Shown in pieces: positions 842-64,000 of a stretch of DNA of 64,000 nt (within the stretch, counting starts at the first letter, position 1; each line of letters opens with the position of its first letter). The DNA is taken from contig OY829540.1 of NCBI GenBank assembly GCA_963691705.1, forward strand, positions 940,001 to 1,004,000, given 5' to 3'. The notes beneath the pieces are model-generated. The model made no database searches. It was not told the DNA's origin and worked only from the letters and a program-made list of their open reading frames with translations. Both the position numbers and the translations under genes were made by a program. Origin of the DNA: Viola odorata (lineage: Eukaryota > Streptophyta > Magnoliopsida > Malpighiales > Violaceae).

Positions 842-2946
842 CCAGGTTATCTGGAGACCCATGGATCCGGAAGTCGCGCAATCACCCAGTACTTTTACAT
901 GCGATGTGGTTCTGAAAGCCGAGCTGGAGGAACACGGTATCACCTTTCCTCCCGGGTATGAACCTTTTATTCCTGAAGGTCATATGCGGCTTCACAACCC
1001 GGCGTGGGGTTTTTGTAGGCTACTTTATTTTAAGATGTTCCTTTATGGTTTCCGCTTTCCCGTTCATGAATCAATACTAACACTGCTGCGGGAGCACAAC
1101 CTTAATCCTGCCCAGATAACTCCCTCTTCTTGGTGTGCGGTTTATGCTTTTCTTCGCGCTTGCGAGTTGAAGAACATTTTCACTCCATCTCTCAATTTAT
1201 TTCGCAAATTCTTTAGTATGAATTGTCATAATTGTTTAATCGAAATCACTCCTCAGTGGGATGACGCGTTCGTGCAGTCGTTCTGGCAGCAGTTTCGCGG
1301 CTTTGAGAAGGGTGTGGCTGATTGGAAAAGTAGTTTTTTCGTTCTCGAGCTACCGTCCCGTTTGTGGCGTATTAATTTCAACCAGGAGCTCATAGGCCCC
1401 GTTTGGATGAATCCCGCGATACTGACCAGAGCTGAGCTGGATCAGGCTAACGCTTTGTTAGACGAGGACACCTGCTATCGCATCCGTGATTTCGCATTAT
1501 TCAAGCCTCTGGAGGAGTGTGTTATAGGTGGGTCTGTCTCTTTTCATACTTTCTTTCTTTCTTTTTCATTCATCCTTGCACGTTTCTTTTATAGAGGATG
1601 CTAACGGTCAATTTCCAGGTGATACTGGCGCTCCTTTGAATGTAGCGCCGCTCCGAACTTTACCAGCCTCGCCTCCTGCCGAGGGCTCTAATCAGGAAAG
1701 CGTTCGACACCCTAGGAGGAGAACTAAGACGGTTGCCCGGGGAGGGCGAAGGCTCGGCGGCTCTGTCCGAGCTTCTCGTTTCGTGGAAAATTGGCTACCA
1801 GATCGTCGCAAGGGAATAGACTCTAGTCGAACCGCAACAAGGGTGATTGATAGCGACGACGAGGATATGGAAGCTAAGCCAGACCTTTGCCATGCTTCTT
1901 CTTTGCGTCGGAAAAGACTTCGAGTGGATGTGAGTGAACAGGCTACTGGGGCATCCTCTGCTGATGCGGTAACTATTTCTACACCTGTCGCTTCGCCTAT
2001 GGCAAGGACCTCTCAGCCAGTAAAGATTACTGAGGTTCCGGGTGTTACCTGCTCTACTGAGACGGAGGCCCCTCTGACAGCATGTCCTCCTCCTACAGCT
2101 GACGCTCATAATTCTCCGATTTCTCACTATATCTCTGACGTGGTGACCACATCTTCTGCTGCCGACTCGACTGCTGGGCTGCCGCCTAAAGCCCTTCCAC
2201 AACTGTTTTTCACTCCTATCTCAAATGTGTTTACTGAGGGTTCCTCTTCCGTTCTGTCAATTAATCTTTCTTACGGTGGCCCTGACGGGTCCCCAGCCTA
2301 TCGCATGAACTTGGCGGGATTCTGCTTTAACGGTCTCCGCGTTGTCGGGGTTCCCCAACCCTTTTCTAGAGATGAGTTTACCGCGCCCTTGATAGGGGAG
2401 ATGATGGGCTCCCGGGCAGAGAAAGAGAAATTTCTTCAGCTTCCTCCAACAGCCCGTCTCCGGCATGTTGTGAATGACTCTCTGGATACCTTCCATTATC
2501 TGAACTATCTGTTCGAGATTCATGATCGTGAGTCACGAAATTTCTCTAGCGCGATGTGTGTTCAGAAGGTGCAGCTTCAAAAATCGGCGGACCATGTGAG
2601 ACTGCTAACGCGTCTTCATGACAAGTCGCAAAAGGAACTGAACAGAGAGAGGTCTGCCGGGAAAGCAAAAATAGAGGTTCTGGAGGCAGAGTTGGCATTG
2701 GAAAAGAAGAGAAATCTCCTTCTCCGCGAAGAGATGTTGGCTCGAGATGAGGAGTCTGCCAGGGCACCATTAAAGGAGGAGTTGTGGAGAAAGAAGGTCT
2801 TGAAGGCCTTCACTTCTGGATTTGTAGCCCGTTTCAAGGGTGATTCTTCTAATCCAGCCCAGGTTGCTGATTATATCTCTACCGTTATGGATGAGGTTAG
2901 CAAAGGTGGGAACGGTTCTTCTGTCCCAGAGGGGGAAGGGACCTGA
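842..2946 (+). CDS. Antisense retroelement gene A (LTR-proximal type), 5'-truncated
   Basis: Two exons, 842-1527 and 1595-2946, joined by a GT-AG intron in phase 1; the frame runs without a stop across the junction. The first ATG is at 861, but the frame is open back to the E5 boundary at 841, and homology with gene D (shared PSTFT followed by the N-terminal domain) begins upstream. The original start was therefore probably cut off by E5. The N-terminal ~220 residues resemble the 'putative gypsy type transposon' domain (NPAQITPSSW, FFVLELPSRLW). Then come an Arg-rich, Ser/Pro-rich middle with nuclear-localisation-like RRRTK, a conserved YRMNL..F...GLR..G motif and a coiled coil (about codons 370-430). 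The function of this family is unknown. It lies antisense to E2 gag-pol. Apart from the lost 5' end it has no visible break, the best preserved of the set. Confidence 0.7.
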
Positions 2947-3619
2947 CGGTAACGGTGGTGCGCGTCTTTTTCATCCGACGGGTGCCTCAAGTTCCGCAAC
3001 GGATTTCTGGGTCCTCCTTTGTTGCTATTCTCATTGTTATCTGTTTTCTTTTATTCTTTCTTGAAGATCATTTGACATTATTTCTTCTGTAATAATGCTG
3101 ACGTTATGTAACCCTTATTGCGCCATTTGATTCGTTGTGATGTTACCGTTGTTTCTTCATTATCTTCCTTGTATCGTCGCGTCGTACCGTTTGGTGAGGC
3201 TAGCACTGCTTTTTAGGTCATTAAATGCCGCAGTCCCCCCATTTGATGTGATTTGAAAAGTAATGATGAAGTGGGACACGTGTCCTTTCATGGAGAGGCA
3301 TTTGAAGCGAGCGTCTTCTAGGGAGACGCGAATGCTGAAGCGTTTCATCATTGTTTTAAAACTTAACCTTCTCGCGCGTGTCTTTCTTTTTGACGCGCTG
3401 CTTCGCCATGTGTCAGTTGCTGATTGGTCGTCCCCTTTCCGGGTTATATATAATGTTATCCCTACCTTCTCTTTCTTTTTTAACCTCCTTTCTTGCACGC
3501 TGTTGTTTTCTAGACAAATAACCCGCGCCGCTTCTTCTTTCCTGGTCTGAGACTCCTGGTGTTCTCTTTTGCCAAGGTACACACCCTTTTCTTTCCTCCT
3601 CCTTTCTCCTTTGTTAGTT
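2947..3619. other. Spacer between antisense genes A and B
   Basis: No coding sequence is recognised. The left part is the 3' flank of gene A (T-rich). The right part is the putative promoter region of gene B, with a TATA-like box at 3445. A plus-strand frame at 3263-3550 is open but resembles nothing in the other copies. Confidence 0.5.
3445..3453 (+). promoter_or_regulatory. TATA box of antisense gene B
   Basis: TATATATAA lies about 165 bases before the ATG at 3620. Genes C, D and E and the small gene S2 also have TATA-like boxes upstream of their starts, which suggests that each antisense gene has its own promoter. Confidence 0.45.
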
Positions 3620-5930
3620 ATGGCTACAACTCATTCTGAGAAACCTGCCGAGGAAGGGGATCCTCACAGGTCTGCTGAGGAAGAAAAATTGATAGCACAC
3701 CCACTTCCCTTTATACATTGCCCTTAGTTCATCGTAAGCTTGTCGGGTCTAAGGCTCGATTTTCCAAAGATTATCCCGTGTATGCTGCTTCTGAATCACT
3801 TCGTCTGAACAGCATTTTGCCTGACAATAGTAGAATGTTGTATGCAAAGTTATTTGATTACGGGTTTTGTCTTCCCCTTGACCCGCTTGTAAAGTTGTTG
3901 TTGGCTGATTCTGACTTGGCTCCGGCTCAGTTGAGCCCCAACGCGATTTGCGTTGTTAGCGCATTTGCCGCTTTGTGCCGTTTCAAAGGGATTGCTTCTC
4001 CCACTTTGGCATTGCTTCATGATATTTTCCAGTTATATTCTCGCAAGGGGGTTATATCAACATCCCCCCGTTATGAAGATGACTCATTGAAGCCCTTTAC
4101 CTGGAAACTCATGGGCATCAAGTCTTCTGTTCCTCACTGGAAAGAAGAATTTTTTATAGTTGATCTGCCCGAGCCTTTGTGGAGGGCCGACTTTAATGAG
4201 GAGATCAAAGATGGGGCTTGGGGTAATCGGAAACCCTTTTCTGGCCTGGAGGACGGTTGGTTTAAGACGTTGCTTCAACTAGATTTCAGTGTTGACGCCC
4301 GTAAAGTAGCTAACGGGTTGGACATGGAGAAGTGCAAAAGGGGTGAGGGTTTGACCTTTTCCTTTTACGCTGCCAAGAAGTGCTAACGCTAACATTTTGT
4401 AACTGTGCAGTGCCTCCGCCTGGTTGGGAGCTTGAATATTTCCGAAGGAAAAGGAAACGGGAGCAAAAGAAGAAAGCTGAAGCCGAAGCCAGAGCCGCCG
4501 CGGCCGTTGCTGCTGTTACTGCTGAAGGAGAGACCAGTGTTATCGCTCCGGACATTGCCCGACTGCCTCCTCGTACTCGTGTTGCGAAGAAGAGAAGGGC
4601 TAGGCAAACGCGTGCTGCGTATCCCGTTTCCCCCCAGACTGCAGTCTCTTCGGAGACAACAGCTAACCCGATTCCCACTGGGATTCCTCTAGCTTCTTTA
4701 GGCACCCGGGTGTGTATTTTTCTCCTTTTACGGTTTGCGTTCTTTTCTCGCAACTTTCTTATTCTGTTTTTGTATTGTCTAGGAGGCCACCACTGTCTCT
4801 GCTCATTCTTCCTCTCAAGACGACATGTCTATGGCGGAAACCCTTCGAGAGCGTCAGAAGAAGGCCCGCTATGAGTTTCAACATAGCCCCTCGTCGTCTG
4901 CTGCTAATCCTTCTTCTGTGGCCCCTAGGGGTGGGAGTATGCCTGCTGAGCAGTTGCAGGGTACTGATTTCGGCGGTGGTCCTTATGTTTTGAGCGATTC
5001 TCCGATCTATTCTCACCCAAGTGTCCTTAATCTTGAAGCACTTGGGGGAGACGGGTCCTCTGTCCCTAACGCGGAAGGTAGCAGCAGTCGACCCGGTTCT
5101 CCTACTACTTTGCTTTTTGTTCCTGTGTCTCCTCCTGTTGCCGCGAGAGGTGGCCCTGTTCCCAGCTTGATGGCCCACGCCTCTTCATATACTCCTCCCT
5201 CCTGCCTACTCACCAGCTTAACCTGCGCTCCTTCCGGGATAACTATTTGCAATTTCCAGCGGATGCTGATCCTGATGCTGTCCTCGCGTCTACCTCTCTT
5301 TTGGCAGCCGAGATTATGTCTCTTCAGAGGGAGAGGGATGCCTTCGTGGCTAAGAGCCCACAGGAACGCATAAACTTTCTCCGCTCCCAAGCATTTTCCT
5401 CGTTCTGCCATCTCCATTACATGGATGAGGAGAACGCCAGGGTGGAGGCCAACGGGCAGGGGGAGCTGAATAGGCTACTGTCTGAGCGTCAGGGTTACGT
5501 GGATGCCCTTGCTGCTGCCAATCGGGAATCGGAGACTACCAGGCGGGAGGCCGCAGTTGCTGCGCAGGGGGCAACAACTGTTAAGCAGGAGATGGAGGCT
5601 ATCAAGCTTGCTCTGGAGGAAGAGAAACAGAAAAATGCGGTCCTGAGCGAACACCTTTCTCAAGAGGAGAGCGGGCTTTGTCAGGAAAGATAGAGAAATG
5701 CTGAGCTGTCTGCCGAGCTTGCTCTTTCTGCTGAGAAGAGCCGTTGGTATTTGAGGGAAGGTGGGGCCATCATGTCGGACGGTTTTATGCATAAGCATGG
5801 GATAGATAACCTTGACGTTGACTTTCTTGCTAGGTATTTTGATGAGAGGGCCTCCGACGCCACTGATGAGGGCTTCTTCCGCTGGAGATCTGCTCAACAA
5901 GGAAGAGGCAACGCACCACCCGCTCCTTAG
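3620..5930 (+). pseudogene. Antisense retroelement gene B (integrase-proximal type), broken
   Basis: Three exons: 3620-4342, 4411-4709 and 4784-5930, all with GT-AG introns; intron 1 is in phase 1, as in genes A, C, D and E. The ATG at 3620 was chosen because the frame runs into the N-terminal domain (ESLRLN, YGFCLPLDPL, LAPAQLSPNA, FFIVDLPEPLW). The middle has a basic stretch (RRKRKREQKKK) and Ser/Pro-rich sequence. The tail is a predicted coiled coil (about 5300-5900). It is close to gene E of element E3. Breaks: a frameshift near 3715, another near 5195 inside the conserved THQLNLRSF segment, and a TAG at about 5691. It runs opposite to E2 pol. The function is unknown. Confidence 0.7.
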
Positions 5931-6295: not shown

Positions 6296-6640
6296 GGGCG
6301 TGCCTCGTCTTAATGAGCCGTCTGATCAGGACCGGACATCACAAGGATAGGATTTTCACTCCCAAGCGTTGAAACCTCGCGTCTCTGGATCATGCCTCGT
6401 CTTAATGGGCCGTCTATGTGAGCACGGTTACCACAAGGATAGGATTTTCACTTCCAGGACGGAGTTGGTCTCTCCTTGGGGCGTGCCTCATCTTACTGGG
6501 TCGTCTATGTGAGCACGGTTGCTATAAGGATAGGATTTTCACTCCCAACGCTTCGTTATGCCAGGGCGTGCCTCGTCTTAGTGAGTTGTCTGATCAGGAC
6601 CAGCCATCACAAGGATAGGATTTTCACTCTTGGCATTCTT
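6296..6640. repeat. Four-copy tandem repeat after E2 integrase
   Basis: About four units of 84-94 bases start near 6298, 6392, 6480 and 6564. Each contains GCCTCGTCTTA, a G/C-rich dyad around GATCAGGACC or GTGAGCACGG, and the constant AAGGATAGGATTTTCACT. The same unit, read on the other strand, is repeated in E3 at 59835-60290 at the equivalent place after integrase. Its role is unknown. Confidence 0.8.
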
Positions 6641-6729: not shown

Positions 6730-9700
6730 CTAGTTTCGAGCGTGATATAGCTTCAGCCGAGCTATGTTCCAAGAATTCTGCAGGGGCGTTCCTTCGAGTG
6801 TTTCCAAATGGTAGGCTCCTCTCCCCACAACACGGGTGACGCGATATGGTCCATCCCAGTTTGGGCTAAGTTTTCCCATATGTTGCCCTGCCGCTCGCTT
6901 ATCTCTGAGCACTAAATCTCTGATTTTAAGCAATCGTTCTCTCACCTGCCTGTTGTGGTATTGTGCCATTTTCCTTTTGTAGTGCAGGGTTTTTAGGAGA
7001 GTTTCCTCGTGTTTTTCTAGTAGTGCGTCAAGGTTAGCGCGTAACCTTTCTTCATTAGTTTCTTCTTTGAAATGAGCCACCCGAAGGCTAACGGTGCTGA
7101 TTTCTACCGGTGTGACAGCTTCTGTTCCGTAGGCCAATGCGAAAGGAGTCTCTCCCGTGCTGACTTTGACAGTCATACGGTAGGCCCATAATACATATGC
7201 CAGTTCGTCTGGCCATTTCTTTTTGGAGCCTTCCAGGTTTCTTTTGATGCCAGTAAGAATGCTGCGGTTGGTCACTTCGGCCTGGCCATTAGTTTGGGGG
7301 TGTGCCACAGAGGAGAACCTTTGTTCAATCTAAAATTCCGCGCACTGATCCCTGAAGAATTGGCTTGTAAACTGTGTTCCATTGTCACTAATCAGTATGC
7401 GCGGTATCCCAAATCGCATAATGACTTGGTGTCTGAAGAAATGCTAGATTTTCTCTGCGGTGATGGTGGCTAGCGCCTCGGCTTCAGCCCATTTTGTGAA
7501 ATAATCCACCGCCACGACTACGAATTTTAATTGAGATCTGGCCTTCGGAAACGGGCCCAAAATATCGATGCCCCATTTAGCAAACGGGCATGGAGCGACT
7601 ATCTCTGAAATCTGCACGGCTAGTTTTCGAGGGATCTTGGCATATTCCTGACATTTCTGACAGGTTTTCACGAAGTTATGGCAATCTCTCCGAATGGTGG
7701 GCCAGTAGAACCCTGACCGAAAGACTTGAGATGCTAGAGTGTCGCTAGCGATGTGCATGCCACATATCCCTTCATGAATTTCTCGTAGTACATGCAGGCC
7801 TACTTGCTTCGTTATGCACTTAGCAGCAGGATGGGAGAAACACCTCCGTATTAACTCTCCATTGTAATATGTGCATCGCGCCGCCCGTTTCAGGATTTTC
7901 CTCCTTTCCGCGTTCTCCTCCGGTAGCTTATCATGTTTCAGATATTCTATCACTGGGGTTCTCCAGTCGCCTTCTATTTCTTCCACACAAAGCGATGCTT
8001 GTTCTTCCATGAAAGAAGGTGTGGGTAATTCTCCGTAGCACACATCATTGGGTATGGGGGCTTCTAAATTGGCTGCCATCTTGGCGAGACTGTCAGCCTC
8101 TTCGTTGCTTTCCCTGGGGATATGTTCAAAAGTGACCCGAGTGCCTTTTTCCTGCATCTTCGACAGCTCCCGCCTTACTTTGGCCAAGTATTGAATCATG
8201 ATGAGTTCTCTCGCTTGAGATTTCCCCAGAACCTGATCCATTACTAGTTTAGAGTCCCCCCGTATCTTTAAGCGCAGGCCGCGTTCCGCTTCCGAGACGG
8301 GTGTAGCTTCAACGGAGAAGCTGTTTCCTATTCTGAGTCCTGCTAACAACGCTTCGTATTCTGCTGCATTGTTGGACAAGGGTTGCAGGATTCTGATGGC
8401 GTATCGTATCTCCATGCTGTTTAGTCCGACTAGGAAAACACCTGCGCCTGCTAATTCTTGATTTTTCGCTCCATCCATGTAGATAACCCATGAATCTGCG
8501 TACGTTTCCGGGGACGGGAGACATGAATCCTCTGATTCTTCTTCTGACGCTTCTGTTAACGCTTCTTTTGTGAATGTGCATTCTGCTATGAAGTCTGCTA
8601 ACGCTTGGGCTTTGATAGCCGGTCTAGCTTTGTACTGCAGCCCATATTGTTCGAGCTCGATTGCCCAAATCAACATTCTTCCCGAGGATTCTGGCTTTCT
8701 AAAGATTTTTCTCAACGGCTGATCAGTGAGTACGGTGACGGGGTGGGCTTGAAAATATCGGTCCATCTTTCGCGTTGCCTGTATTAGGGCAAGCACTATC
8801 TTCTCGATGCGGGCGTATCGCAGTTCAGCATCTTTCAATATGTGGCTGACGAAAAATATAGGACGATGTATGTGCCCTTCACTTCATACAAGGACGGCAC
8901 TGACTACCTCGTCAGCGACGCCCAGGTATAGGTATAGCTCATCGCCAAATCCAGGCCTCGTTAACACTAGATCGGATGACAGGTAAGCTTTTAGTCCCAC
9001 AAACGCTTTCTCACATTCCTCTGTCCATCCGAAGGGGGCCTTGTTTCGAATGACTTTGAAAAAAGGTAAGCATCTCTCACCCTGTTTAGATATGAACCGT
9101 CCTAACGCGATGATGCGTCCAGTGAGCTTCTGTATTTCTTTGACAGTTCGAGGGGGTATCATATCCTGGATGGCCTTTATCTTTGAAGGGTTGGGTTGGA
9201 TACCTTTTCGGCTAACCACGTAGCCCAAGAATTTTCCCGTTTGGAACGTGAACATGCACTTCCTCGGATTCAGCTTCATTTTGTATTCTTTCATCACACT
9301 GAAGACTTCTTCCAAGTCGGTTAGGTGGTCTTTAAAGCTTCGAATTTTGACTAGGATGTCGTCCACGTAAGCTTCTACATTTCTCCCGATTTGCTTTTGG
9401 AAAACCTTATTCGCCATGCGTTGGAACGTTGCCCCGGTATTTTTCAGCCCAAACGGCATTGCAGTGTAGCAGTAAGTAGCCCTCAGGGTGATGAAGGTGG
9501 TTTTTTCTTCGTCTTCTATAGCCATGGGAATTTGATGATACCCGGAGTTAGCATCTAGGGAGCTTAGGTATGCGTATCCAGCGATTTGGTCGACCAACTG
9601 ATCGATTCGAGGAAGAGGATAGCAATCTTTGGGGCAGGCGCTGTTCAGGTCAGTGAAATCGATGCACATGCGCCAATCCCCGTTAGGCTTTGGAACCAAC

Positions 9701-10317
9701 ACAGGGTTAGCTAGCCAGGTTGGGTATTGGACTTCTCGGACAAACCCCGCGTCTGTGAGCTTTAGTAGCTCTTTCTCGATGGCTGCTATTTTTTCAGATG
9801 AAAAAGTGCGCCGCTTTTGTTGAATAGGCTTAGCGTCAGGGCTAACGTTTAACCAGTGTTCCGCGACTTCTCGTGAAATTCCAGGCATGTCTGCCGGTTT
9901 CCACGCGAATTCTCCTTTGCATTTTCTTAGCAGTCGGGTTAATTGCACATTCTCTTCGGGACTTAGCTTCTCACTGACCAAGAGGTTCGCGTCACTGTCT
10001 TCACTGATAGGTATTGACATCATCTGATCCAGCGGCTGAGTGCACTTTTCTTCTTTATCATCGAAGGGATCATCTGCTACGCATACGTACCGGTTGTAAC
10101 TCCTTTGAGTCATGAGCAGGTAGCATTCAGCGGCTAGCTTCTAGTCTCCTTTGATTGAGACCACGCCGTCCCACGAGGGATATTTCATTCGCAGGTGTTT
10201 TTGGGATATTGCGGCTCTAAAGCGATTGAGGAACGGTCTCCCCAGTATGGCATTATAAGGCAGCGTCAGGCCTACGACCAGAAATAATAGCTTCTCAGAG
10301 CGTTTGGATGTGTCTTC
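6730..10317 (-). pseudogene. E2 pol: reverse transcriptase, RNase H, integrase (broken)
   Basis: From 10113 down, the RT shows the YVDDILVK catalytic motif and the FLGYVVS segment of Ty3/gypsy RT. RNase H follows (YMDGAKNQ..AGAG, NNAAEYEALLAGL, RGDSKLVMDQV). Integrase has an H-H-C-C zinc finger (HVLREIHEG..., CQKCQEYAK), the D of WGIDILGPF and the DNGTQFTSQF block, and ends with the usual GPYRV..GAYHLE segment at 6730. In-frame stops break it: TAG near 10141, TGA at 8881-8883 (CGA expected), TAG at about 7441 (TGG expected) and TAG near 7330. A frameshift near 10318 separates it from the protease. The polyprotein would be processed by the element's own protease in virus-like particles; this copy cannot make it. 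Confidence 0.85.
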
Positions 10318-12682: not shown

Positions 12683-13236
12683 TGATAAGAATTTGTCTTC
12701 GGCCGAAGGATAGAAAGGGAAAATGCTTCTCCAGTTCAGTATCCTCGGTGGTCCGTTGTACCTGCAAGACGCCGGAGGGGGTCTCCGGCGGAAACACTCC
12801 GATGCTTAAGTTAGTATGAGTGGTGAAATTGGCAGAGCTTGGGCCAGTGAATTCTTCTTCCCTTCCTCCTTCGTGGGGGAGGTATTTATAGATGAAATAA
12901 GCATGTCTGTGCGAGTGGGATCGCTAGGGAGCAACTGGTCCCGTCAGAGGCTGCGGCTTGCCCGTGTTATGATGTACCGTCATGGCGGTAGGTATGGGGT
13001 AGTTGTTACCCCGGCAAGGTAACGGTTAGTGCGTTTCCCTTGAGGTGGGATAGCACCTCTGGTCATCTAGAAGCTCCATGCGGGGACCCCCAACGAGACG
13101 TCAGCCCTCCTGGCGTTAGTCCCGTAGAGGGGAATGACAGCCTCGACCCTACCGTAGCGGTAGGAACAGTGATTCTTTCCTTTCCATATGGGGTAAACAG
13201 ACAAAAATGCCCTTGTCGTGAGGTGGATTGTTATCA
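12683..13236 (-). repeat. E2 5' LTR (554 bp)
   Basis: The LTR starts with TGATAA (13236, minus) and ends with TTATCA (12683), a perfect 6-base inverted terminal repeat, identical in the E3 and E4 LTRs. A TATAAATA box is at 12883-12890 (minus). A GCCGGAG hairpin follows at 12771-12789. The outer end interrupts the E1 gag frame, which fixes the boundary. Confidence 0.85.
12771..12789 (-). other. Conserved LTR hairpin, E2 copy
   Basis: GCCGGAG and CTCCGGC form a 7-bp stem about 100 bases downstream of the TATA box, close to TTGCAGGTA. The same hairpin is in the LTRs of E3 and E4. Its position fits the transcribed R/U5 part of the LTR. Confidence 0.65.
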
Positions 13237-15347: not shown

Positions 15348-16598
15348 ATTTTCCGGGCGAGGTAAGACATTGCCATTAACTCGTCTTGACCTCCATTGTG
15401 GATATTCCGGTATTGTGGTTGTAGGGATGCCGTGTCCTTTGAGACAAAAAGGGTGGGCCCAGTCTTGGGCGTACAACTGAATGTCCTGATTTTCTCCGGT
15501 GTGTGGCACGTCTGATCTTGTCATGCCAAATGTCACGGGAATTATTTCCGTGATGCAGAACTGTCTGAGGACGAGGGCAGGGCAATAGTGAGTGCAACCC
15601 CATGCTCCGATCAAAGGAACCCAAGGTAAGTGTCCGCAGCAGACGATGGGATTGGAAGTCTGCAGCCATTTGGCGCACCAACTGAAGTCTTCTTCTGAGA
15701 GGTTTATGAATCAGTTGATCCAGACATCCTTATTTTCCATCTCCCATCTATCTATGGTCATTGCGTTGATAACCCTGAGTAGAGGGCATGACCTTATGTA
15801 GCTTGCGAAGAAAATGGTCTGATCAGGAACCTGTTTGAAGTGGCTGACCAACCACACTGTCAACAACTGGGTGCAACATGTAAGTCTCCCTTTCCCTTTT
15901 CTTCGACAAGAGTCCAATGAGCGAAAGGTCTCGGCCAAAATGGCTATTGTAGGATTGATGGCATTTGTCTCCATTTTGTAAAAGATGTTGGCTGCTGCAA
16001 AGTCGATGGCATTCCTCATTTTTTGAAAGAGGACAAATCCTACAATGGTGAAAGCTAGAATCCTTAAGCGTTTCTTTCCGTTGGACAATCGAAAGCGTGC
16101 CTCAATATCTGACCAGCACCAGAAGTAGTCACCCTCTCTGACACGAGTAGTGATTCCTAACAACTTATCGAGCCTTATTTTGACACTCGAGGAGTCGAGT
16201 CGAACATTCTGGTATATGGCCGATATAGGAGAGCTGAAGCACATCAGAGCTGAGTACTCCTCTAGCGTAGGAGTCAAGTCTACCTCTTTGTCGAAAGAGA
16301 AGCACCGATAATAGGGATCCCAGAATTTTAGGGCTGCCCGGATGCAACCCCAATCAGTCTTTACGTCAACTAGGGTCAGTAGCTTTCCATAACTACCCTC
16401 AAACTGTGTCTCCTCGTCTTCAGTCAGCTCATTTCTCAACATCCGAATCCTAGTTAAGTCGAAGTCCACGACTTCTACTTTGATCTTAGTGGTGATGTCA
16501 GGGGCGAACCCACGTTCCAACAGATCTCCTCGTGCGGCCTGATCGTCGAAACTTCGTCCCCTGAAAATATTAAATGAAAGTAGTGTAGGTGCCGACAT
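15348..16598 (-). pseudogene. E1 first gene, DUF7745-like protein (broken)
   Basis: The ATG at 16598 opens a 295-codon frame with residues typical of the plant retroelement-linked DUF7745 family: WGCIRAALKFWDPYYRCF, DLTPTLEEYSALM, ANIFYKMETNAINPTIAILAETFRSLDSCRR, LLTVWLVSHF, WEMENKDVW. A TGA at about 15711 ends it, but related sequence continues in shifted frames to about 15348 (LINLSEEDF, FCITEIIPVTFGM, HPFCLKGHG). The function is unknown. In Ogre elements an extra gene sits in this position before gag. Confidence 0.65.
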
Positions 16599-17136: not shown

Positions 17137-18043
17137 AACTGTCGCGCCCCACGAAAAAGTAATTCGCGAGTGTGCAACGAAATTTGGGACCTTCAGATGC
17201 TCGGCGTAAAAGGACGCCTAGCAGCATGCAATGAAGTCGCCACCCTAATTTGGTTGCTAGGTTTAGGGAACCTTAATCGTCATGGCATAAGAAATATAAT
17301 AAGTAAAAAACTAAAGGCACAAAAAAGGGGTTTGGACCCCAAACAAAGGTTCGGGGTCGTATTATGGTCTCGGGAAGGTGTTAGGCACCCGAGTCACATC
17401 CGAAAATGGTTACCGGTTGATGAGAGAGGTGTTTAAAAAGGTGTTTGATAAAATGCGTTTTGAAAAAGGGGACCCTCAGAGGAATTGTCACTTTAGTCTT
17501 TTCTATGATCGTGACCGTTCAGGGATAATTAAAAAATCTTTCTGACGGGGTTACCGTTTATCGAGATTGATTGATTATTCCTGACCGCAACGTGATGGGA
17601 CTGAATTTTCCATAAGACTGAATGAGCGCCCTCTTATTTCATCATCGGGCCATGCATGATTAAATTAATTACTACGTGATCCTAACATGGATTGCTAACA
17701 GAGTACAAATTTAAATGATAGATTTTTGAAGTGGAAAACTGATGTGGGATCGAAAGTCCCCATGTACATGCAGTCAATACAAGCGAGAATTTAAAATCAT
17801 ATGAACATGGCATTTTAAGCAAGTCTTTAAACACGTTGTTCATGTGAGTTGATTTTAGTTCTAGCAATTCTATATATCATGCGTACGATTGATATTTACG
17901 AAAAGCGTTGAATAAATAAAAAGGAATTGAAAGGCGTACTTTCGAGCGAAGCTTGAACTTAAAACCTACAAAGTAAGAGTGTTAGCGATAGCTTGAGAAA
18001 TAAATAGGCAATTTTATGAGTGCAAAAATTTAAATGACAATTG

Positions 18044-18380
18044 ACTGTATGCGAGAAATGATGGATTTAACGCATACGAGAATTAAATGTTGAGCTGATT
18101 GCATGCGAGAAATGCTGGATTTAACGCATACGAAAAGTAAATGCTGAGTTGATTGCGTGCGAAAAATGATAGATTTAACGGATATGAAAATTAAATGCTG
18201 AGTTGATGGTATGCGAGAAATGATGGATTTAACGCATACGAAAATTAAATGCTGAGTTGGTTGCATGCGAAAAATGATGGATTTAACGCATACGAAGATT
18301 AAATGCTGAGTTGGTTGCATGCGAAAAATGATGGATTTAACGCATACGAAAATTAAATGTTGTTTTGATAAGTGCAGAAA
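18044..18380. repeat. 54-bp tandem repeat in E1 LTR
   Basis: Five full units start at 18065, 18119, 18173, 18227 and 18281, with partial units on both sides. Each has ATTTAACGCATACGA, AAATGCTGAGTTG and GCATGCGA. The unit is 54 bases, exactly 18 codons, so it makes an open frame of repeated 18-residue blocks on the minus strand. I do not regard that frame as a gene. Confidence 0.9.
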
Positions 18381-18599
18381 TATTAAATGTAGTTGACGAT
18401 TTATAGGGAATTAAAATGGTTGACGGCTTGCAGAAAATAAAACAGGTTGATAATGCAGAAAATAAAACAGTTGATGTTGCGGAAGAATTTCCAGCAGTTT
18501 GCGAGAAATTAAAGCAGTTGATGTTGCGGAAAATAAAACAATTGGTATTTGCAGAAATAAACAGTTGATATTTGCGGAAGAATTTCCAGCAGTTTGCGA

Positions 18600-21682: not shown

Positions 21683-21824
21683 AAACATCGCAATTAAAAA
21701 GGATAGGGCGAGGAAGACCGGTTGTCGCCTCCAACACTTGGAGGACTGGGAATCCCTCTCACAACATCTGTTATAGAAGTGGCCTCAGAAGATAAAGCTT
21801 TAATCCCTTCCCAACAACATGTCA

Positions 21825-22098
21825 ATAAAGCCTTCCTATTCTACAGCATGTTAATGGCAACATAAATATGGGAAATTCAGACAGCAGCTTTGGAAATAAC
21901 CTGTAGCGAATCATCATCATTGTCAAAAGTTGTATCACGACGAACCTTTAAAGGGTCAAGAAGCTCCTCTAACAAACGAATATCTTCAGAAGTCCTAAAA
22001 ATCATACTTTCTAAAGCAAGACCATCCACCATGGTAGCATGTTGCTTCACAGTCAAAGCTTTAGATAAAAGCAAATTTTTTTGCTGATCATTCAAGGT
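21825..22098 (-). pseudogene. Small antisense gene S1 (broken)
   Basis: Related to S2 over its whole length: LNDQQKNLLLSKA against DEQTKGELLLSVS, LEELLDPLKVRRDTTFDNDDDSLQVI against the ...LEVRRDLTIDEDDDTLDIV block, then HIYVAINML against HLRVAVNML. A stop at 21877 and another near 21830 interrupt it, and no ATG aligns with the S2 start. It lies just downstream of gene C. The product is unknown. Confidence 0.5.
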
Positions 22099-22458: not shown

Positions 22459-24541
22459 TCACTTCTCCTCACCAGGTGCAACCTTATCAGACGGACCAAA
22501 GGCACCAGTTGGCCCACTAACATCTACCAGTGGATCTTCATTGAGAAAGAAAATACCTGCCTGTTTTAGCCTACGGGTGACGACGGGATTAATCCCTCCA
22601 GGATCTAACTGTGACTCCCCATAAACCTCCGCAAAACCATCGATCGTAATGGCAATTTTTTCCTGAAGATCAGTCCGCCTGGAGGGAAATTCTTCAACCT
22701 CTTTTATCCTTTCAGCTAGAGAGCAGCGCAAACGAGATATCTCCTCCACATTCGCAGCTTCCCTCTTGTAAAAATCCTCCTTGACTATAAATTTTGACCT
22801 CCAATGCACCTATCTTCCTAGTAGCTTCTTCCATTTTAAAAGCAGTCTCTTCGGCATGTTGCCGCCAAGAAACTTCAGCGTTGCGAACCGCTTCCAACTC
22901 ATGAGTATAATGGTCCAACAAAGAACGAACGCGACAAGAACCCACCAACGTGGCAGAACGGACCCTATCGAAAAGAACCTCCAAAGGTAGCTGGGCAGAA
23001 ACCTCTTTATGCTCTGGAATATCTATCATTTCAGAAAGATACCTGGCAGTCTACATATCATCACCCGCGGGATCCGATACTCCCAACGTTCTTAAACCTT
23101 CGGAACCAAAATGTCGCATATCCAATCGATGGGTCAATTCACCTGAAGGACCGTGAGAGGAAAGATGTGCAACAAAATCATAGGAGGAACTGGTAACGCC
23201 AGAGGAAGAATACGACGGTAGAGAGGGGCGCGGAATAAAAGATAAATCGGTAGGGCCCAGAGAAGTGAAAAGCACACTCGAGGAAGGTAGTTGCCCAGTT
23301 GAAACAAATTGAGAAGGTTCCGATTGAGGAGAAGACATCGGTGCCGATACATCACCCAATGCAAGATCAACTGGATAAGGAGATAAAATACCTGAACCAA
23401 CAATCCTAGCGGGGGAAAACCCTTCAGAAGGCACAGAAACCATGGGCGTTTCTGAAAGGGAGGCCCCGCCTTCAGATTGAACACCAACTAAAGACAAACC
23501 CTCATCTAACCTAGGGCGTTTGTTCCAAAGGGCGTCCATGTCGGAATTGGTGTCGCGGGAATGAGAGGAAAATGATACTAGTGATTCTGAATCGGCACCC
23601 TCGTCGGCAAAAGGATTCTCTCTTATTAGGAGGGGAGGGTTAACGATAGCTTTCCTTTTCCTTCGTTGCTCCTTCACCAGTGATTTGATGGTACTCTCAG
23701 AAACGAAATCCTTCCCTCGCTCTCTTCGTTCCTTTCTCTTTTCAACCTCTAGTGGCTTTATCTCTGCGAAAGACAAGAAAATATCAGAGTTAGAAAAAGG
23801 GTGAACCCTTTAAACACAAAGGAGATTATACTTACCCTCGGGACATTCCGATAGAGGGATTCCGATAGCCAGTTTCCTAGTGTGAAAAGGGGACCTCACA
23901 AGGATAAGCCTATCAGCTAACGCTTGAGATGAACCGGAAAGATTTGTTGTCTTCCTCCAACGACCCTCCAAAACATCTCTGTTAAAACCAGTCCTCCAGG
24001 GAAAGGAACTAGACTCCATGATAAAGAAATGATCTTTCCAATGATGAATAACAGTCTCAATGGCCTGAAAATTGAGCGTAAATCCTCGCACCGATTTATC
24101 GCTCCAGCGAGGGCCAAAAGAAACCGCACTCTTGCGACAGTACAACTGAAAAAAGTACCTAAATAATCTAACAGAGGGGGAAGATATGTCATTTATCTTA
24201 CAGATTTCGATAAAAGCATGGATGGAGGACCAACCATTTGGAGCTATCTGGGCAGGGTTCAAATTAAGGTCACTAAGCAAATTGGCTGCCAAAGGATATA
24301 ACGGAAGCCTAAAACCATACCAAAACATCTTCGTATATAATACCCATTGATTTGTCCCTAAAATACTATTCAAACAAATACCCTCACTGGCAACCTTAAT
24401 CTCATACTCAGATGGCAAAACAACACCAGATTGAGACAATTCCCTCTCAATATCCTCTAAACTAGTCAACACAAAAGCTGTCTCATCTATCTGTTTTTCA
24501 TACATACCAAGGGGCTTCACAGAAGGGGTGGCTCGAGGCAT
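22459..24541 (-). pseudogene. Antisense retroelement gene C (integrase-proximal type), broken
   Basis: Exon 1 is 24541-23836 and exon 2 starts at 23763; the intron is GT-AG, phase 1, at the same place as in A, B, D and E. The N-terminal domain shows YGFRLPLYPL, LNPAQIAPNGWSSIHAF and WKDHFFIMESSSFPWRTGFN. A basic patch follows (KRKERRERGK, RRKRKA), then a Ser/Pro-rich middle, the conserved THRLDMRHFGSEGLRTLG motif, and a coiled-coil tail (VSWRQHAEETAFKMEEATRK). Breaks: TAG at 23051 and a frameshift near 22795; sequence in the new frame continues to a stop at 22459. It is antisense to E4. The function is unknown. Confidence 0.7.
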
Positions 24542-25307: not shown

Positions 25308-25679
25308 CTACTCATCCCCAGAATCAGGGACAATGGGGATATCTCCCAGAGAGGTAGCCACCGCTCCAGCTTCGACAGGAATCATAGCAACGCTCCGGAA
25401 ATAAGCTTCCAGTTGACCCCTCTTGTGCTGGAGCATGTTGACGGCAACACGAAGATGAGTAAGGCACTCACTGACAGAAGTAACAATATCCAGTGTATCG
25501 TCATCCTCATCGATGGTCAAATCCCTTCGAACCTCTAACTGATGAACGATATCTTCCAGGTGAGTAATGTCGACCAAGGTGTCTTGAATCATTTGCTGCA
25601 AAATGTTCATGTGCCGAAGGGAATTGTGCTTCACCATGGAAACACTAAGTAGAAGCTCTCCCTTAGTCTGCTCATCCAT
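25308..25679 (-). CDS. Small antisense gene S2, unknown protein (123 aa)
   Basis: The ATG at 25679 (MDEQTKGELLLS) was chosen over the longer open frame because a TATA box (CTATAAAT, 25728-25735, minus) lies about 50 bases upstream, and homology with S1 starts here. The protein is helical and charged, with an acidic stretch (DEDDDTLD) about residues 66-73 and a heptad-like N-terminal half (MNILQQMIQDTLVDITHLEDIVHQ region). It is intact. S1 is a broken paralogue on the other side of gene C. I do not recognise the family and propose no function. Confidence 0.55.
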   Translation of the reverse strand: MDEQTKGELLLSVSMVKHNSLRHMNILQQMIQDTLVDITHLEDIVHQLEVRRDLTIDEDDDTLDIVTSVSECLTHLRVAVNMLQHKRGQLEAYFRSVAMIPVEAGAVATSLGDIPIVPDSGDE

Positions 25680-27578: not shown

Positions 27579-29544
27579 TCAGTCTGACCCCGGTGGAAGA
27601 GAGGAAACCTTAAAAGTCGCATGCGCTAACTTTGTCTCAAGCTTATCTATCTTGGCAAGATAAGTTCCCTTCTCGGCCTCCATCGCTACCAGCTTGGCTT
27701 CCAGCTCTAGAATCTTGGCTCTATCAGTACACGTCTCCTTTTTTATCATAACCAGATTAGTGGTGGCATTCTCCAAACTTCCCATTATCTCTTCTTGCAA
27801 TCAGACGAGACAATGGTTCTCGTCACGAAGTTTCTAAGAATCAACGAAAGATTGATCCGCTTTATCAAGATAGTATCTACCAATTTTGTTAGCAACTGAA
27901 AATCACGAAAGGAGGAAAACAACTCCTCACGAACCAAAGCATGATGAGCATCCAAAGACAAGTGTTGAATAGAGGACCCAATGGAAGAGGAACACAACAT
28001 TTCTTCTACCACGAAAGCCAACTCTAGAATGTTTGTTTTTGAAAAACCCATGGATCGCATACCAGAAGTACTAAAATCATGCAAGTCCAAACGATAGGAA
28101 GCGAGACCACCTGGAACAGTAGAGAGATGGACCACCGGCTCACGAGGTGGACCAGAAAGACGATTGTTGTTCAAAGAGGCATCAGGAGGCAACAAACCCG
28201 GAACAAAATGAAGGAAGGATGGTAGATCTACCGGATCAGAAGGCTGGCCTAACTCCCTATCTATCGGAACAAAACTATCCTGACGACACACGGTAGTCGA
28301 GGGAGACGGTAACCGTACAAACTCACGAGGAAAAATAGGTGCTTCCTCGGAAGGTACCACTGAATCTGAGGGAGGCACAGAATTGCATTCCACGGTATCA
28401 GGCAGAATAACTGACGTCCTGCTCGTTCCACCCACCGAAACTGTTGAAGAAGTCCCTTGCATGTCGGCAACTATCGCCCGACCTTCTACCCTTTGACGCT
28501 TCCGAACACTCCTAGGAATGAGATCAGGGCAATCGGTAGAATCCTCTACATCCATCAACTCATCAGCAACACCCAAAACAACTTGCTCTGAATCCATCCC
28601 AGAAAGTACTACTTGTTGAGGCCCAACCTAGGGAGACCCCTTAGATGAAGAAGGAAGATCAAATCCCTCTAACTTCACCCTCGAAAAACAAATGGGGACT
28701 GAATCAGGTCCGATAGGCACTCTTTGAGAAGAAGACTCTACCGTAGCACCCCTATTGGCCACATCTCCTACGGAAAAAAAATTCAGAGGAGAATAAACCC
28801 AAAAAAGGAAGGAAGAAAACGGGGCTTACCAATAAGGCAATCCTTGAAAGCGGCACTCGAAACCAGCCTCCTAACAAGAAAGGGAGTGTTAAGAGCCATC
28901 AATCTATCGAAAGCCTTCTTAAGACCGGTCATATAACGGATCGGCCTATCCCAATCCGCGTCAGTAATTTCTCGATTAAAATCAGGACGCCACAAGAAAG
29001 TAGGCATGTCAAGAACAAAAAATCGGTTTCTCCATCCCGGTATCGAAACCTCTATCCCATGGAAATTCCTCAAGAAGGGAAGAACTGTTTCATCACCCCA
29101 ACGAGGATGAAATGATACAAAACCCTCCCGATAGCATAGATGAAAGAAAATTTGAAACAACTCAACGGGAGGATTCGTAATACGCTTGTGCTCACAAACT
29201 CTTAAAAAGGTATACAAAACCATCCAGGAGAGGGGAGTTATCTGTGCAGGATTTAGCTTACAACGACCTAACAATCTAATAACAGTACCATGAAGGGGAA
29301 GCGAGAAGCCATATTGAAACATGGTGGTGTACAGGATCCTACGATTATCGGGGAAAATAGTGTTCAACCTAACATCTGGATCAGGTGGATAAGCAAAATA
29401 CCCCTCAAGAATGCAAACCTTAAATTCGTATAACTCATTCCACAAGGGCCCCAACTCAGTAAAAGTGGAAGGAGTTCTCGCCATTTTCTGTTCCGCCTTA
29501 CTCAAAGGTCTAATGGGACAACGCGAGGAGCGAGTACCAGACAT
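27579..29544 (-). pseudogene. Antisense retroelement gene D (LTR-proximal type), broken
   Basis: Exon 1 is 29544-28830 and exon 2 is 28767-27579, with a GT-AG intron in phase 1. The ATG at 29544 gives MSGTRSSRCPIRPLSKAEQK, then a segment shared with gene A (ARTPSTFTE). The N-terminal domain shows YGFSLPLHGTVI, LNPAQITPLSWMVLYTFLR, PRWGDETV and FFVLDMPTFLWRPDFN. The middle holds RKRQR and the conserved YRLDLHDFSTSGMRSMG motif. The tail is a coiled coil (27800-27579, ILELEAKLVAMEAEK). Breaks: TAG near 28630 and a frameshift near 27795. It is the antisense gene nearest the E4 3' LTR. Confidence 0.7.
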
Positions 29545-41654: not shown

Positions 41655-43408
41655 GGGCCAAAAGACAGATTGGCATCCAGTTTTTATAAGAAAAAATAGA
41701 TTGGCACTCAATTAAAATAATTGACAAATTTGTCACCCAAGTTTTCTCCGTTAGACAATTTAGCACCCAACCTTTCCTCCGTTAGACAATTTAGCCACCG
41801 TGGCCATTAAGTTTGACTAACGGCGTTAAATAAATGACACGTGACCGTTATCTGCTGACGTGGCACCATATCTGCCACGTCAGCATTTTAAAAAATATAA
41901 AATTGTAAAAATAGAGGAAAAATCTTTAAAATTTTATAAAAAAACCAGAAAAATAAAAAAAATATATAAACATTTTTAAAAAATCAGAAAATATAAAAAA
42001 ATATAAAAAAATCTAGAAAAAATATAATGTAAACAAATATATGTGTTTTAAAAATTATAAATAAAAAAATAGGAAATACAAACCAATAGAATTTTTTTAA
42101 AAAAAATTAGACAATCCGTAGAGTGTAAAAATAAATTATTTTCAAATATTTTATTATAATTTTTATTAAAATATCTTAAAAATAGAAAAATATAAGAAGA
42201 AAAAAAGAAAAAAGAAAAAAGAAAAAACACACTCCGTATAGATACTAGAAATGCTAACTTCACCCCTCCACACCTCATTTTTTTAGTTTCTCTTTTAGGA
42301 TAGTGAGTTTGTTGAAGGGATTGAAAAACAAAGTGATAAAGATTTGAGGTAATAGCATAAAGACCCTCTGTACTATTTTTCAAAACAGAAACCTCCCCTG
42401 TACTTCAAAAAGTCAAATTGGCCTCCCCTGTACTATCGGTCAGAAGCATTTGCTTGGTCTCCGTCAGTCAAACTAACAGACCGTTAGTGTTGACCGTTGA
42501 CTTTGAATAAAATATTCAGAAAAATTGTAAAAAATCCAAAAAAAATGTAAAAAATCCCAAAAAAATGTAAAAATTCTATAAAAGAATTTTAAAAATTCCC
42601 AAAGAAATGTAAAAATTCAAAAAAAATTAATAAATCCAAAAAAATTGTAAAAATTTCCAAAAAAATGTAAAAAATTCAGTTTTACATTTTTTCCTGAATT
42701 TTTAAATTAATTAACTTTTTTTGATTTTTTTTTTATTTTACATTTTTTTCTGGATTTTTAGGTTACATAATTTTTTTATAGAATTTATACATTTTTTTGG
42801 GATTTTTTACAATTTTTTACATTTTTTTTGGATTTTTTACATTTTTTTTGAATTTTTTAATCAAAGTCAACGGTCAAAAAGTGAAGTCTGTTAGTTTGAC
42901 TGGTACAGACCAACGGAATGCTTCTGACCGATAGTACAGGGGAGGTCAATTTGACTTTTTGAAGTATAGGGGAGGTTTCTGTTTTGAAAAATAGTACAGG
43001 GGATCTTTATGCTATTAACATGAAAGATTTTGTCCATTTTTTTAAAAATCCTATTGGTTTGAATTTTCTATATTTTTTTACATTATAATTTTTCCTCTTT
43101 TATTTTTTTCATATTTTTCTGGATTTTTTTATATTTTTCTGAATTTTTTGGAAAATTTTAAAGATGTTCTCCCTATTTTTACAATTTTATATTTTTTAAA
43201 AGCCACGTCAGCTGATAACGGTCACGTGTCATTTATTTAACGCCGTTAGTCAAACTTAACGGCCACAGTGGCTTAATTGTCTAACGGAGGAAAGGTTGGG
43301 TGCTAAATTGTCTAACGGAGAAAGCTTAAGTGGCAAATTTATCAATTGTTTTAATTAGGTGCCAATCTGTCTTTTTTATAAAAGTTGGGTATCAATCTAT
43401 CTTTTGCC
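41655..43408. mobile_element. MULE-type inverted-repeat transposon with no coding sequence
   Basis: The arms 41655-42115 and 43025-43408 are inverted copies of each other (CAGATTGGCA(T/C)CCA, TCTCCGTTAGACAATTTA, TTAACGCCGTTAGTCAAAC and others). The ends are GGGCCAAAAGA and TCTTTTGCC. A 9-base direct repeat AAAAAAATA flanks it (41646-41654, 43409-43417), the size used by Mutator-like elements, although an A-rich repeat is weak evidence. There is no transposase. A second hairpin element is nested in the centre. Confidence 0.7.
42350..43017. mobile_element. Inner hairpin element nested in the MULE
   Basis: Inverted arms 42350-42520 and 42865-43017 share ATAGCATAAAG and a block containing GTACTATTTTTCAAAACAGA. 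The two outer bases are TA on each side, so the target repeat may be TA. The loop is filled with copies of AAAAAAATGTAAAAA and their inverses, so a transcript would fold nearly end to end. Confidence 0.65.
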
Positions 43409-51692: not shown

Positions 51693-53009
51693 TTAATACT
51701 TGGTACAGTCAGCTTCCCTAAAAGAGAGATGCTTTCCTTTGAGGTCATAACTTATCAGGAAGTTTGCCTGCTGTGTGTTTCCATAGATGGGAAGGTCATC
51801 AGACGGCACAAAAGCAAAGCAAACTACATCCTCACTTGTTTCCAGGAAACTGTTCGAATCACTCAGCGTCACTTTTGCACCAGTAAAATGCATTACGATT
51901 TTGGGAATTTTGACATCAGATTTGTAACAAAGCTCCAATTCTTCAGTTGGGTCATCAACAGGTTCCGATGGGATCAAGTTTCTCAGATTGGCTACAACTG
52001 AATCATACATCTCCTGAGGCAGGTATGTCAATGTAGTTCCTGAATCAATTATCATGCGTATATTATCAGATGAGGATGTTGATTTTAAAATCTTGTCTGA
52101 TTCAAGTGAGATTGATTCGAGTGTGATGTAGTAAAATGTCTCCACCTCTCCTGAAACTATCGGTGTAGAATGCACCGCATTTCCTGAAACCTCACTGTTG
52201 CTGCCAAAATTGAGTTTGCTGAGGTGATTGGAAGAGGGGGGGACTAGGCAATAAGAAAATTTGCCATCAATCGAATCCTTCATTCTGGAAAACAGGGAGG
52301 CTGGACCCTGTCCAAACCCTACAATTCCAGTTCCATCAAAGTAGCCTTCATTGTAGGTTGCGCAACCGATTGTGGTATCTTCCAAAGAGAAGGGTTGGCC
52401 ACTTGTGGAACCTAAGGTGACTGTGTCAGTGGCCATGACTCCATGTGTGAAGGATCCATCTCCAAAATTGTACGAGTAATGACAAGCACTGGATTCACAC
52501 CAAGCATTTTCCTTCAAAGAATGGCAAGGCTCAGAATCACAAGTTACATTCTGGTACGTCGAGGAAGCCTTGGGATTGAAGAAGGGAGTAGTTTGTTTGA
52601 AACACATGTGACAGGGTTCGCACTGTGTCCATACGAGATCACTGCCTGTATCCAAAGTGGCCAGCATCTGAACAGGTGGAGTCCCAAGTGATAGCCTCAT
52701 GAGATAGTCACCATCACCAGAGGTGACTACAGATTGGGGTGTGTCTGAGGAAGAAATAAAAGCAGCCTCTTTGAAGCGCTTTACGCGCTTGGCAGAACGC
52801 TGCAAAGCATTAGTCAACCGACTTAAAGGAGTTTGTGAAGCGTTGAAGAGCAGGGAGATCTGTGAATCCCTATGGGTTAGTTGAATGCTGAAATCCAGAT
52901 TTTGGGCTTCAGCAAGAGGGGAAGCTGATAGAGAAATCCTGAGCAGAAGAGGCAGCGCTGATGCAAAGGCAAGAAGAGCCCTGCGATACTGTGCTGCAAC
53001 GAGTGCCAT
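51693..53009 (-). CDS. CDR1/nepenthesin-type aspartic protease (438 aa)
   Basis: A single exon, ATG at 53009, 438 residues, normal for plant A1B atypical aspartic proteases. An N-terminal hydrophobic segment (residues 11-29, LLAFASALPLLLRISLS) looks like a secretion signal. Catalytic motifs are DTGSDLVWTQC at 120-130 and DSGTTLTYLP at 322-331. The flap-region Tyr lies in YSYNFGDGSFTHG (178-190). The cysteine-rich nepenthesin insert is present (CEPCHMCF, CDSEPC, CESSAC). It should cleave proteins at acidic pH in the apoplast or vacuole; CDR1 in Arabidopsis acts in disease-resistance signalling, but that role is not shown here. A TATA box (TTATATA, 53064-53070, minus) is 55-60 bases upstream. 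A broken copy follows at 53684. Confidence 0.9.
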   Translation of the reverse strand: MALVAAQYRRALLAFASALPLLLRISLSASPLAEAQNLDFSIQLTHRDSQISLLFNASQTPLSRLTNALQRSAKRVKRFKEAAFISSSDTPQSVVTSGDGDYLMRLSLGTPPVQMLATLDTGSDLVWTQCEPCHMCFKQTTPFFNPKASSTYQNVTCDSEPCHSLKENAWCESSACHYSYNFGDGSFTHGVMATDTVTLGSTSGQPFSLEDTTIGCATYNEGYFDGTGIVGFGQGPASLFSRMKDSIDGKFSYCLVPPSSNHLSKLNFGSNSEVSGNAVHSTPIVSGEVETFYYITLESISLESDKILKSTSSSDNIRMIIDSGTTLTYLPQEMYDSVVANLRNLIPSEPVDDPTEELELCYKSDVKIPKIVMHFTGAKVTLSDSNSFLETSEDVVCFAFVPSDDLPIYGNTQQANFLISYDLKGKHLSFREADCTKY

Positions 53010-54966: not shown

Positions 54967-54968
54967 AA

Positions 54969-63800: not shown

Positions 63801-64000
63801 TCATGGGCCCTCGCGAGCATCGCGATCACCATTCCTCCACTTTTCTCCAGAAGAAGGAAGATCTCTCTCACCTTCGCCCAAATCCTTTAGTCTCTTGGAA
63901 GCGTAATCGGTCGGCACTGACGAGTCAACAGTTCCCTGGCGATAGAGACTCATAAATTCAGCGATACAAATATCCATGGTCTTGTTCTTCCACCAGGCTA
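63801..64000 (-). CDS. Second antisense gene of E3, C-terminal end only
   Basis: Open from the window edge to TGA at 63801-63803, 66 codons: WWKNKTMDICIAEFMSLYRQ... ending RDAREGP. It aligns loosely with the C-terminus of gene A (ELWRKKVLKAFTSGFVARFKG...), and lies where A lies relative to B. It is therefore probably the LTR-proximal member of the tandem pair in E3. The rest is beyond the window. Confidence 0.5.
   Translation of the reverse strand, partial: AWWKNKTMDICIAEFMSLYRQGTVDSSVPTDYASKRLKDLGEGERDLPSSGEKWRNGDRDAREGP

Follow-up and report, generated by a model that had tools for sequence, protein, structure and literature searches.

Paired, intron-bearing Transposase_28 genes and small companion frames antisense to gag-pol in Tat/Retand-like elements of Viola odorata

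Extra open reading frames (ORFs) were reportedly surveyed by Steinbauerova in 2012. The present concern is with those antisense to gag-pol in Tat/Retand-like long terminal repeat (LTR) retrotransposons of Viola odorata, and in particular with genes A and B of element E2, at positions 842-5930 of a stretch of 64,000 nucleotides ('the window', C4:940001-1004000). Is an antisense gene there unexpected? The original prediction counted such genes as known in Retand, and rightly so, as antisense ORFs with a Transposase_28 (TRP28) domain are published as characteristic of it: of 63 Retand clusters only two are reported to lack them, they make up 57 of the 104 long antisense ORFs, and a DNA-binding regulatory role has been proposed for them (PMC11963269, Vicient 2025). 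Neumann 2019 gives Transposase_28 for 23% of Retand elements and, as a Retand trait common to Ogre, a second RNase H (aRH) between RNase H and integrase (PMC6317226). The Retand of Silene latifolia has two extra ORFs 3′ of pol, ORF3 and ORF4, the latter antisense and with Transposase_28 (PMC7264820, PMC11728184). The genes described here resemble the Retand TRP28 ORFs in their position between pol and the 3′ LTR, in orientation and in the domain itself; however, that survey took unspliced ORFs of at least 600 bp, and the available part of its text reports no introns, no paralogue pair, none of the small genes here termed X and Y, and no selection test (PMC11963269). Grande gene23 of maize is likewise an antisense accessory gene, transcribed from its own promoter and with a nuclear product, though in the accessible account it is a single gene (PMC7264820). 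Ogre elements with a plant mobile domain share the Tat clade, extra genes and a known spliced intron, but that intron is on the sense strand, between GAG-PROT and reverse transcriptase (RT), and only some transcripts have it spliced out (PMC6317226), unlike the antisense introns here. Antisense genes of HTLV such as HBZ are comparable as antisense accessory regulators in a retroelement, by analogy and with homology not claimed (PMC11963269). That antisense Transposase_28 ORFs exist is already known; what may be new is the duplicated intron-bearing set with X and Y. Searches of an open-access library without the Grande and Retand originals turned up neither a Transposase_28 paralogue pair nor the intron nor X/Y, and priority is not claimed.

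The genome searched comprises 699 Mb in 26 contigs, ten of them chromosome-sized. The models of genes A (861-2946, its stop codon at 2944-2946) and B (3620-5930) were built on an alignment of 12 E2-family copies, and both genes are on the plus strand, opposite to E2 pol.

861-1527, plus strand: gene A exon 1, N-terminal domain containing Transposase_28, 222 codons and 1 nt (PF04195, E-value 8.5e-10)
1528-1594, plus strand: gene A intron, 67 nt, GT-AG, phase 1; donors and acceptors kept in 12/12 copies
1595-2946, plus strand: gene A exon 2, with basic stretch, low-complexity linker, PAYRMNLAGF..GLRVVGVP motif and Lys/Glu/Leu-rich tail (alignment)
3445-3454, plus strand: gene B TATA box, 175 nt before the ATG, TATATATAAT in 12/12 copies
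3620-4342, plus strand: gene B exon 1, with the Transposase_28 domain; window copy frameshifted (PF04195, E-value 1.3e-6)
4343-4410, plus strand: gene B intron 1, 68 nt, in phase 1; contains CTAAC repeats resembling a branch site (alignment)
4411-4709, plus strand: gene B exon 2, Lys/Arg-rich at its start (alignment)
4710-4782, plus strand: gene B intron 2, 73 nt, GT-AG, in 12/12 copies
4783-5930, plus strand: gene B exon 3, carrying the motif and a coiled-coil-like tail; window copy frameshifted (alignment)
6733-10113, minus strand: E2 pol, with RT, RNase H, second RNase H (RVT_3) and integrase (profile matches)
12683-13236, minus strand: E2 5′ LTR, 554 bp, 96.6% identical to the 5′ LTR of the family copy on C10

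Splice sites in B are kept in all 12 copies, save for one donor removed by a deletion. With Pfam profiles, RVT_3 (residues 125-255) lies between RT_RNaseH (2-65) and Integrase_H2C2 (348-399) in the pol ORF at 7447-8838, so that E2 has a second RNase H where Retand has it, and, again as in Retand, an antisense Transposase_28 gene lies between pol and 3′ LTR. Retand clusters have a published distance from pol to 3′ LTR of 2.9-6.6 kb (PMC11963269); here it is longer, ~8.1 kb in the C10 copy (which spans ~15.1 kb and whose 556-bp LTRs are 97.3% alike) and ~9.0 kb (59716 to 68758) in a second element, E4. The latter extends over 54443-69286, passing the window's end, is flanked on both sides by ATAAC, and has an integrase 84% identical to that of E2. 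Further Transposase_28 genes are present in a third element, E3, and at two loci elsewhere, L040 and L041, whose integrases are 72% (over 191 residues) and 68% (over 37 residues) identical to that of E2.

54443-54967, plus strand: E4 5′ LTR; the 3′ LTR, 97.2% alike, is outside the window at 68758-69286
60824-63184, minus strand: E4 gene C, B type, integrase-proximal; intron 62473-62404, phase 1; TATA box 63359-63350
63801-64000, minus strand: 3′ end of E4 gene D, A type, LTR-proximal; the remainder, up to 66042, is beyond the window
22460-24541, minus strand: E3 gene E, with Transposase_28 and a phase-1 intron at 23835-23764; frame changes later, 3′ limit approximate
27785-29544, minus strand: E3 gene F, with Transposase_28 and a phase-1 intron at 28829-28768; stop in exon 2, 3′ limit approximate
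21709-22095, minus strand: E3 small gene s2, X-like, with stops; 37-39% identical to X of E2
25308-25679, minus strand: E3 small gene s1, X-like, 123 amino acids; TATA box 55 nt upstream

Exon 1 of D is at 66042-65320, outside the window. The prediction of two large antisense genes per element is confirmed, with coordinates, for E2 (A, B), E3 (E, F) and E4 (C, D), the genes that the original prediction called D, C and E being taken here as F, E and C. Against a PF04195 cut-off of 26.2 bits, scores were 39.2 for A, 29.0 for B, 53.4 for D, 41.7 for E, 37.9 for F, 53.3 for L040 and 52.8 for L041; the piece of C scanned, which is without the domain part, had no match. Gene A is open in the window, through 672 codons; B and C are less intact than had been supposed, B being frameshifted and C having one stop and one frameshift in exon 1. 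Of the 12 E2-family copies three are open in A, namely the window copy, L008 and L018, the last of which has lost its ATG.

How constant is the intron? In all eight distinct genes, from five families (A, B, C, D, E, F, L040 and L041), the first intron is GT-AG, in phase 1 and 62-77 nt long, and, as predicted for the readable first introns, its place is the same in seven of the eight, which have the donor two codons and one nucleotide after a conserved Cys (three codons and one base in L041). The same donor is present in two further A-type loci, L021 and L024. Without splicing, exon 1 would meet a stop 8-86 nt beyond the donor in the eight genes. On genomic sequence, then, ends, position and phase are conserved as in spliceosomal introns. 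Judged by eye, A, B, C, D, E and L040 all have basic residues in the first 60 positions downstream of the intron; in L041 they come later. The predicted common motif, of DL-F-GLR type, can be aligned in all eight genes but is weak in B, C and L040; it and the coiled-coil-like tail were assessed by eye. How can introns survive in a retroelement? They may do so because the genes are antisense to the genomic RNA: reasoning from the retrotransposon cycle, introns off the genomic-RNA strand would go unrecognised in the sense RNA and would be expected to persist through reverse transcription. Intron reporters are the mirror image of this arrangement (PMC12786077).

Counts for the E2 and E4 families refer to the best candidates, which were scored with the queries and the window included. 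The whole 842-5930 stretch is matched in 25 of 31 E2-family loci, and the block X-Y-A-B is unbroken in 15 of 22; its E4 counterpart is unbroken in 19 of 20 E4-family loci, and both E and F are present in 15 of 25 E3-family loci (grouped by eye), in three of which other DNA is between them. The pair, as opposed to one gene, is accordingly a trait of these families, as had been foreseen. Against pairing being general among relatives, L040 and L041 have one Transposase_28 gene each within the 9.8 kb fetched around them, and X was not detected in those 9.8 kb either. Transposase_28 is very common genome-wide, with 11,413 candidates, 150 of which were scored, all above the cut-off. Among the matches listed, X is near Transposase_28 (within 8 kb) in at least 21 of 46 distinct hits chosen from 150, and is near at least 13 of 40 C loci, figures not relied on. 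A protein database search with A exon 1 gave a single match, a 125-residue protein on a contig of 1,520 bases.

For selection, omega was calculated from variants common to at least two of the 12 E2-family copies, with the mutation spectrum of intergenic sequence as the standard. Such variants number 7, 8 and 30 at codon positions 1, 2 and 3 of A exon 1, and 14, 7 and 34 at those of B exon 1. The comparison of dN/dS (the nonsynonymous to synonymous rate ratio) between copies, proposed in the original prediction, reveals purifying selection: omega is 0.24 for A exon 1 (p 7e-6) and 0.20 for B exon 1 (3718-4341, p 3e-8), and X (six copies) has 0.22 and the integrase C-terminus 0.28 (11 copies; 11 of the 12 gave an integrase match). 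Intergenic frames gave 0.63, 0.83 and 0.82 (p 0.12-0.35, none significant). With singleton variants the values are 0.47 for A exon 1, 0.36 for B exon 1, 0.33 for X, 0.31 for integrase and 0.86-1.59 for intergenic frames. In the E2-E4 comparison the orthologous pairs A-D, B-C and X-X are 50-60% identical and synonymous sites nearly saturated; B exon 2 is disregarded there, its match having fallen on Y instead of C. With kappa 2, dN/dS comes to 0.27 for X, 0.18 for A exon 1, 0.32 for B exon 1 (96 codons), 0.41 for A exon 2 and 0.68 for B exon 3, with 0.24 for the gag region, 0.08 for integrase and 0.06-0.10 for pol. By these omega and dN/dS values A, B and X code for protein and are under constraint, the first exons most. 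Coding on the sense strand of exon 1 was considered and rejected: two of its three opposite frames have omega >1 and the third 0.35 (p 0.0014), and minus-strand ORFs overlapping exon 1 are all at most 72 residues long.

In the window E2's own 3′ LTR is not beside A, since another element, E1, appears to have inserted at 842, 19 nt upstream of the gene A ATG, its repeat ending at 841; two of the other E2-family copies have different sequence at the junction position. The E1 repeat, of at least 2.1 kb, is taken as an LTR and is 93.7% identical to a second copy 8.8 kb leftwards. E1 thus parts gene A from its upstream region, from X and Y, and from the 3′ LTR. The original prediction had a pair of antisense genes in E2 and E4; the pair is there, but X and Y, situated between A and the 3′ LTR, were overlooked, and each of these elements has four antisense genes (X, Y, A type and B type), in the order X-Y-A-B from the 3′ LTR. 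X, of ~125 residues, is 60% identical between E2 and E4 (E-value 4e-46) and in E2 is related to s2 (39%, 1e-19) and s1 (26%, 9e-10) of E3. Y, of ~140 residues, is 46% identical (2e-31) between L005, a single E2-family locus, and E4. A Pfam search with X and Y gave nothing at E-value ≤1, and a single-sequence structure model of s1, weak evidence in itself, has two long helices at a predicted local distance difference test score (pLDDT) of 75. In the E4 family the best 150 of 6,751 X candidates, a sample biased to the best, are 98-100% identical and stop-free. Y is open through residue 140 in six of nine copies, counted from single loci with L004 and L018 excluded as frameshifted, so that 9 of 11 copies were used; its first 50 codons have omega 0.16 (p 0.018) and the remainder 2.02 on 11 changes. 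The Pro/Lys/Arg-rich part of Y of E4 resembles the start of B exon 2 (4411 onwards; E-value 4e-8 in L017), and Y may derive from a second exon, which low complexity makes uncertain. TATA boxes precede X (at -67 in the E2 family, from the C10 copy, at -55 in E4, and at -55 for s1), Y (TATTTAAGGG at -77 in E2 and -76 in E4), B and C (-175 in both), and F and E (-224 and -231).

Does the pair go back to one duplication? In the exon-1 tree A with D (plus three further loci) and B with C each have 100/100 support, so the pair existed before E2 and E4 diverged. Deeper nodes have 13-90% in the approximate likelihood-ratio test and 18-70% bootstrap. The split that sets A and F against B, C and E, which the original prediction staked its case on, is present in the best tree but with 44% bootstrap, and rival topologies stand: the approximately unbiased (AU) test, on eight author-chosen topologies and with the model of the first exon-1 tree, not the later best-fit model, rejected none of them (p 0.19-0.78). 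An old duplication kept by selection had been suggested; the selection is seen, but a single old duplication would, on the sequences compared, be one of several possibilities. Instead, the E2/E4 lineage and the E3 lineage may each have acquired a pair on its own, or recombination with another element may have supplied one member, an account to which we give slightly less than even odds. It fits the single gene of the Retand-like L040 and L041, the weak deep nodes (trees uniting E and F are among those not rejected, AU p 0.19), and the alternating E3 order F-s1-E-s2, which with its two X-like genes differs from X-Y-A-B; against it, the best trees place F next to A and D, and E with the remainder, as two old types would.

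What might such genes do? From the observed reading frames, the shape and constancy of the introns, the selection, the TATA boxes and the pairing throughout the families we infer an accessory protein gene cluster, X-Y-A-B, antisense to gag-pol in one lineage of Tat/Retand elements and encoding nuclear DNA-binding regulators that act in trans, a reading with a probability of about one half. The genes, read from the 3′ LTR towards pol, would apparently be transcribed as separate units of the integrated copy, and the transcripts of A and B spliced. A and B are paralogues, each with the Transposase_28 domain, phase-1 intron, linker, DL-F-GLR motif and coiled-coil-like tail, and may split the work or act together. 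Their proteins would most likely be nuclear, binding the element's own DNA and tuning its expression or silencing in trans; element regulation is the likeliest but an unproven role. The nuclear product and own promoter of Grande gene23 (PMC7264820) and the DNA binding predicted for Transposase_28 (PMC11963269) favour this reading.

A number of results weigh against this. B is open end to end in none of the 12 copies, the window copy being frameshifted in exons 1 and 3, though the broken copies are to be seen as aged insertions, which qualifies that count. X has a stop in two of the six E2-family copies that reach it (four are open), and for Y as a whole omega within the family, 0.63 (p 0.23), is not significant. 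Selection is weaker on A exon 2 (omega 0.43), B exon 2 (0.56, p 0.07) and the parts of B exon 3 (0.50 and 0.57), and the rate at which A and B change between families is 2-4 times that of integrase and roughly that of gag. By the patterns used, the 320 nt upstream of A, D and the L040 and L041 genes are without a TATA box, and in L030, a Transposase_28 copy, a deletion has taken the last part of exon 1 and the greater part of the intron. The fold model of A exon 1 is poor (pLDDT 52.6), a search of solved structures had as its best chain one at E-value 0.82, and nothing computed supports DNA binding.

Could the proteins serve the life cycle outside transcription, in nuclear import or the choice of integration target, as has been proposed for retroviral accessory factors? 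The nuclear localisation of Grande gene23 (PMC7264820), the basic stretches after the intron (further on in L041) and a between-family constraint like that of gag fit this, but proteins made from integrated copies must reach cytoplasmic particles, and the proposal, by analogy, would be an unlikely one. More improbable still is that the antisense genes act mainly as RNA, pairing with genomic RNA to tune silencing, with the frames of little matter. Antisense retrotransposon RNA can trigger silencing (PMC7264820; PMC12786077) and the TATA boxes are conserved; yet codon-position and omega patterns indicate protein-level selection on A, B and X, and pairing has no need of conserved introns. That the frames are chance openings or decayed relics of a repetitive region might be suggested by the stops or frameshifts of most copies (9 of 12 for A, all 12 for B), but is contradicted by the PF04195 matches, the conserved splice sites, the low omega and the identity of orthologues at near-saturated synonymous sites; already refuted for A, B and X, it can be given next to no weight.

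Two paralogues plus a small third gene, X, are thus under protein-level selection that is near that of integrase within the family and near that of gag between families, and a catalogue of antisense ORFs becomes a set of definite, testable gene models which predict transcript starts and splicing. The models suggest that ORF-based surveys may split these genes and miss small ones. A bolder idea, tentative and rather doubtful, is that some Retand elements would have two coding programmes, one per strand: gag-pol via RNA, and on the antisense strand an accessory genome whose four genes each have a promoter and can hold introns unseen in the splicing of the genomic RNA. The orientation would have been selected as confining the proteins to chromosomal, nuclear-spliced transcription; the duplicated A and B types would form a dedicated heteromeric complex, and many antisense ORFs annotated 'Smc' or 'TolA' in published surveys may be second exons of these genes.

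Of other features of the elements, one is near the genes themselves:

6296-6633, no strand assigned: tandem repeats between gene B and pol, 70% alike those of E4 at 59837-60274

These short repeats may be a binding array. E3 was entertained as a pol-less type of element, which is out, as Retand-like pol is ~2.0-2.3 kb downstream in two E3-family copies (RT 67%). Several E3-family matches break at about position 4690 of the E3 query (window ~25111), where one locus has ~276 extra bases; between s1 and E there may have been a deletion in the window copy or an insertion in the others. The insertion site of E4 was apparently a gene copy for a xylanase-inhibitor-like aspartic protease, the flanks of the element (53687-54444 and 69340-69721, L010:5340-5721) matching successive parts of a tandem aspartic protease copy at 51720-52914 (77% and 75%). 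An ORF at 15711-16598, minus strand, has DUF7745 and weak similarity to the plant mobile domain. Kinship of the Transposase_28 genes with that domain (PF10536) was rejected, exon 1 of A, B, E and F having no match at E-value ≤1 and hhalign giving a probability of 0.2% against the DUF7745/plant mobile domain ORF of the window. At 17971-18402 six overlapping 162-nt copies in 54-bp steps amount to a 54-bp tandem repeat, with more repeats to 19.1 kb, and 41691-43375 is a large imperfect inverted repeat, like a foldback element, with outer arms of 174 nt that are 92% complementary.

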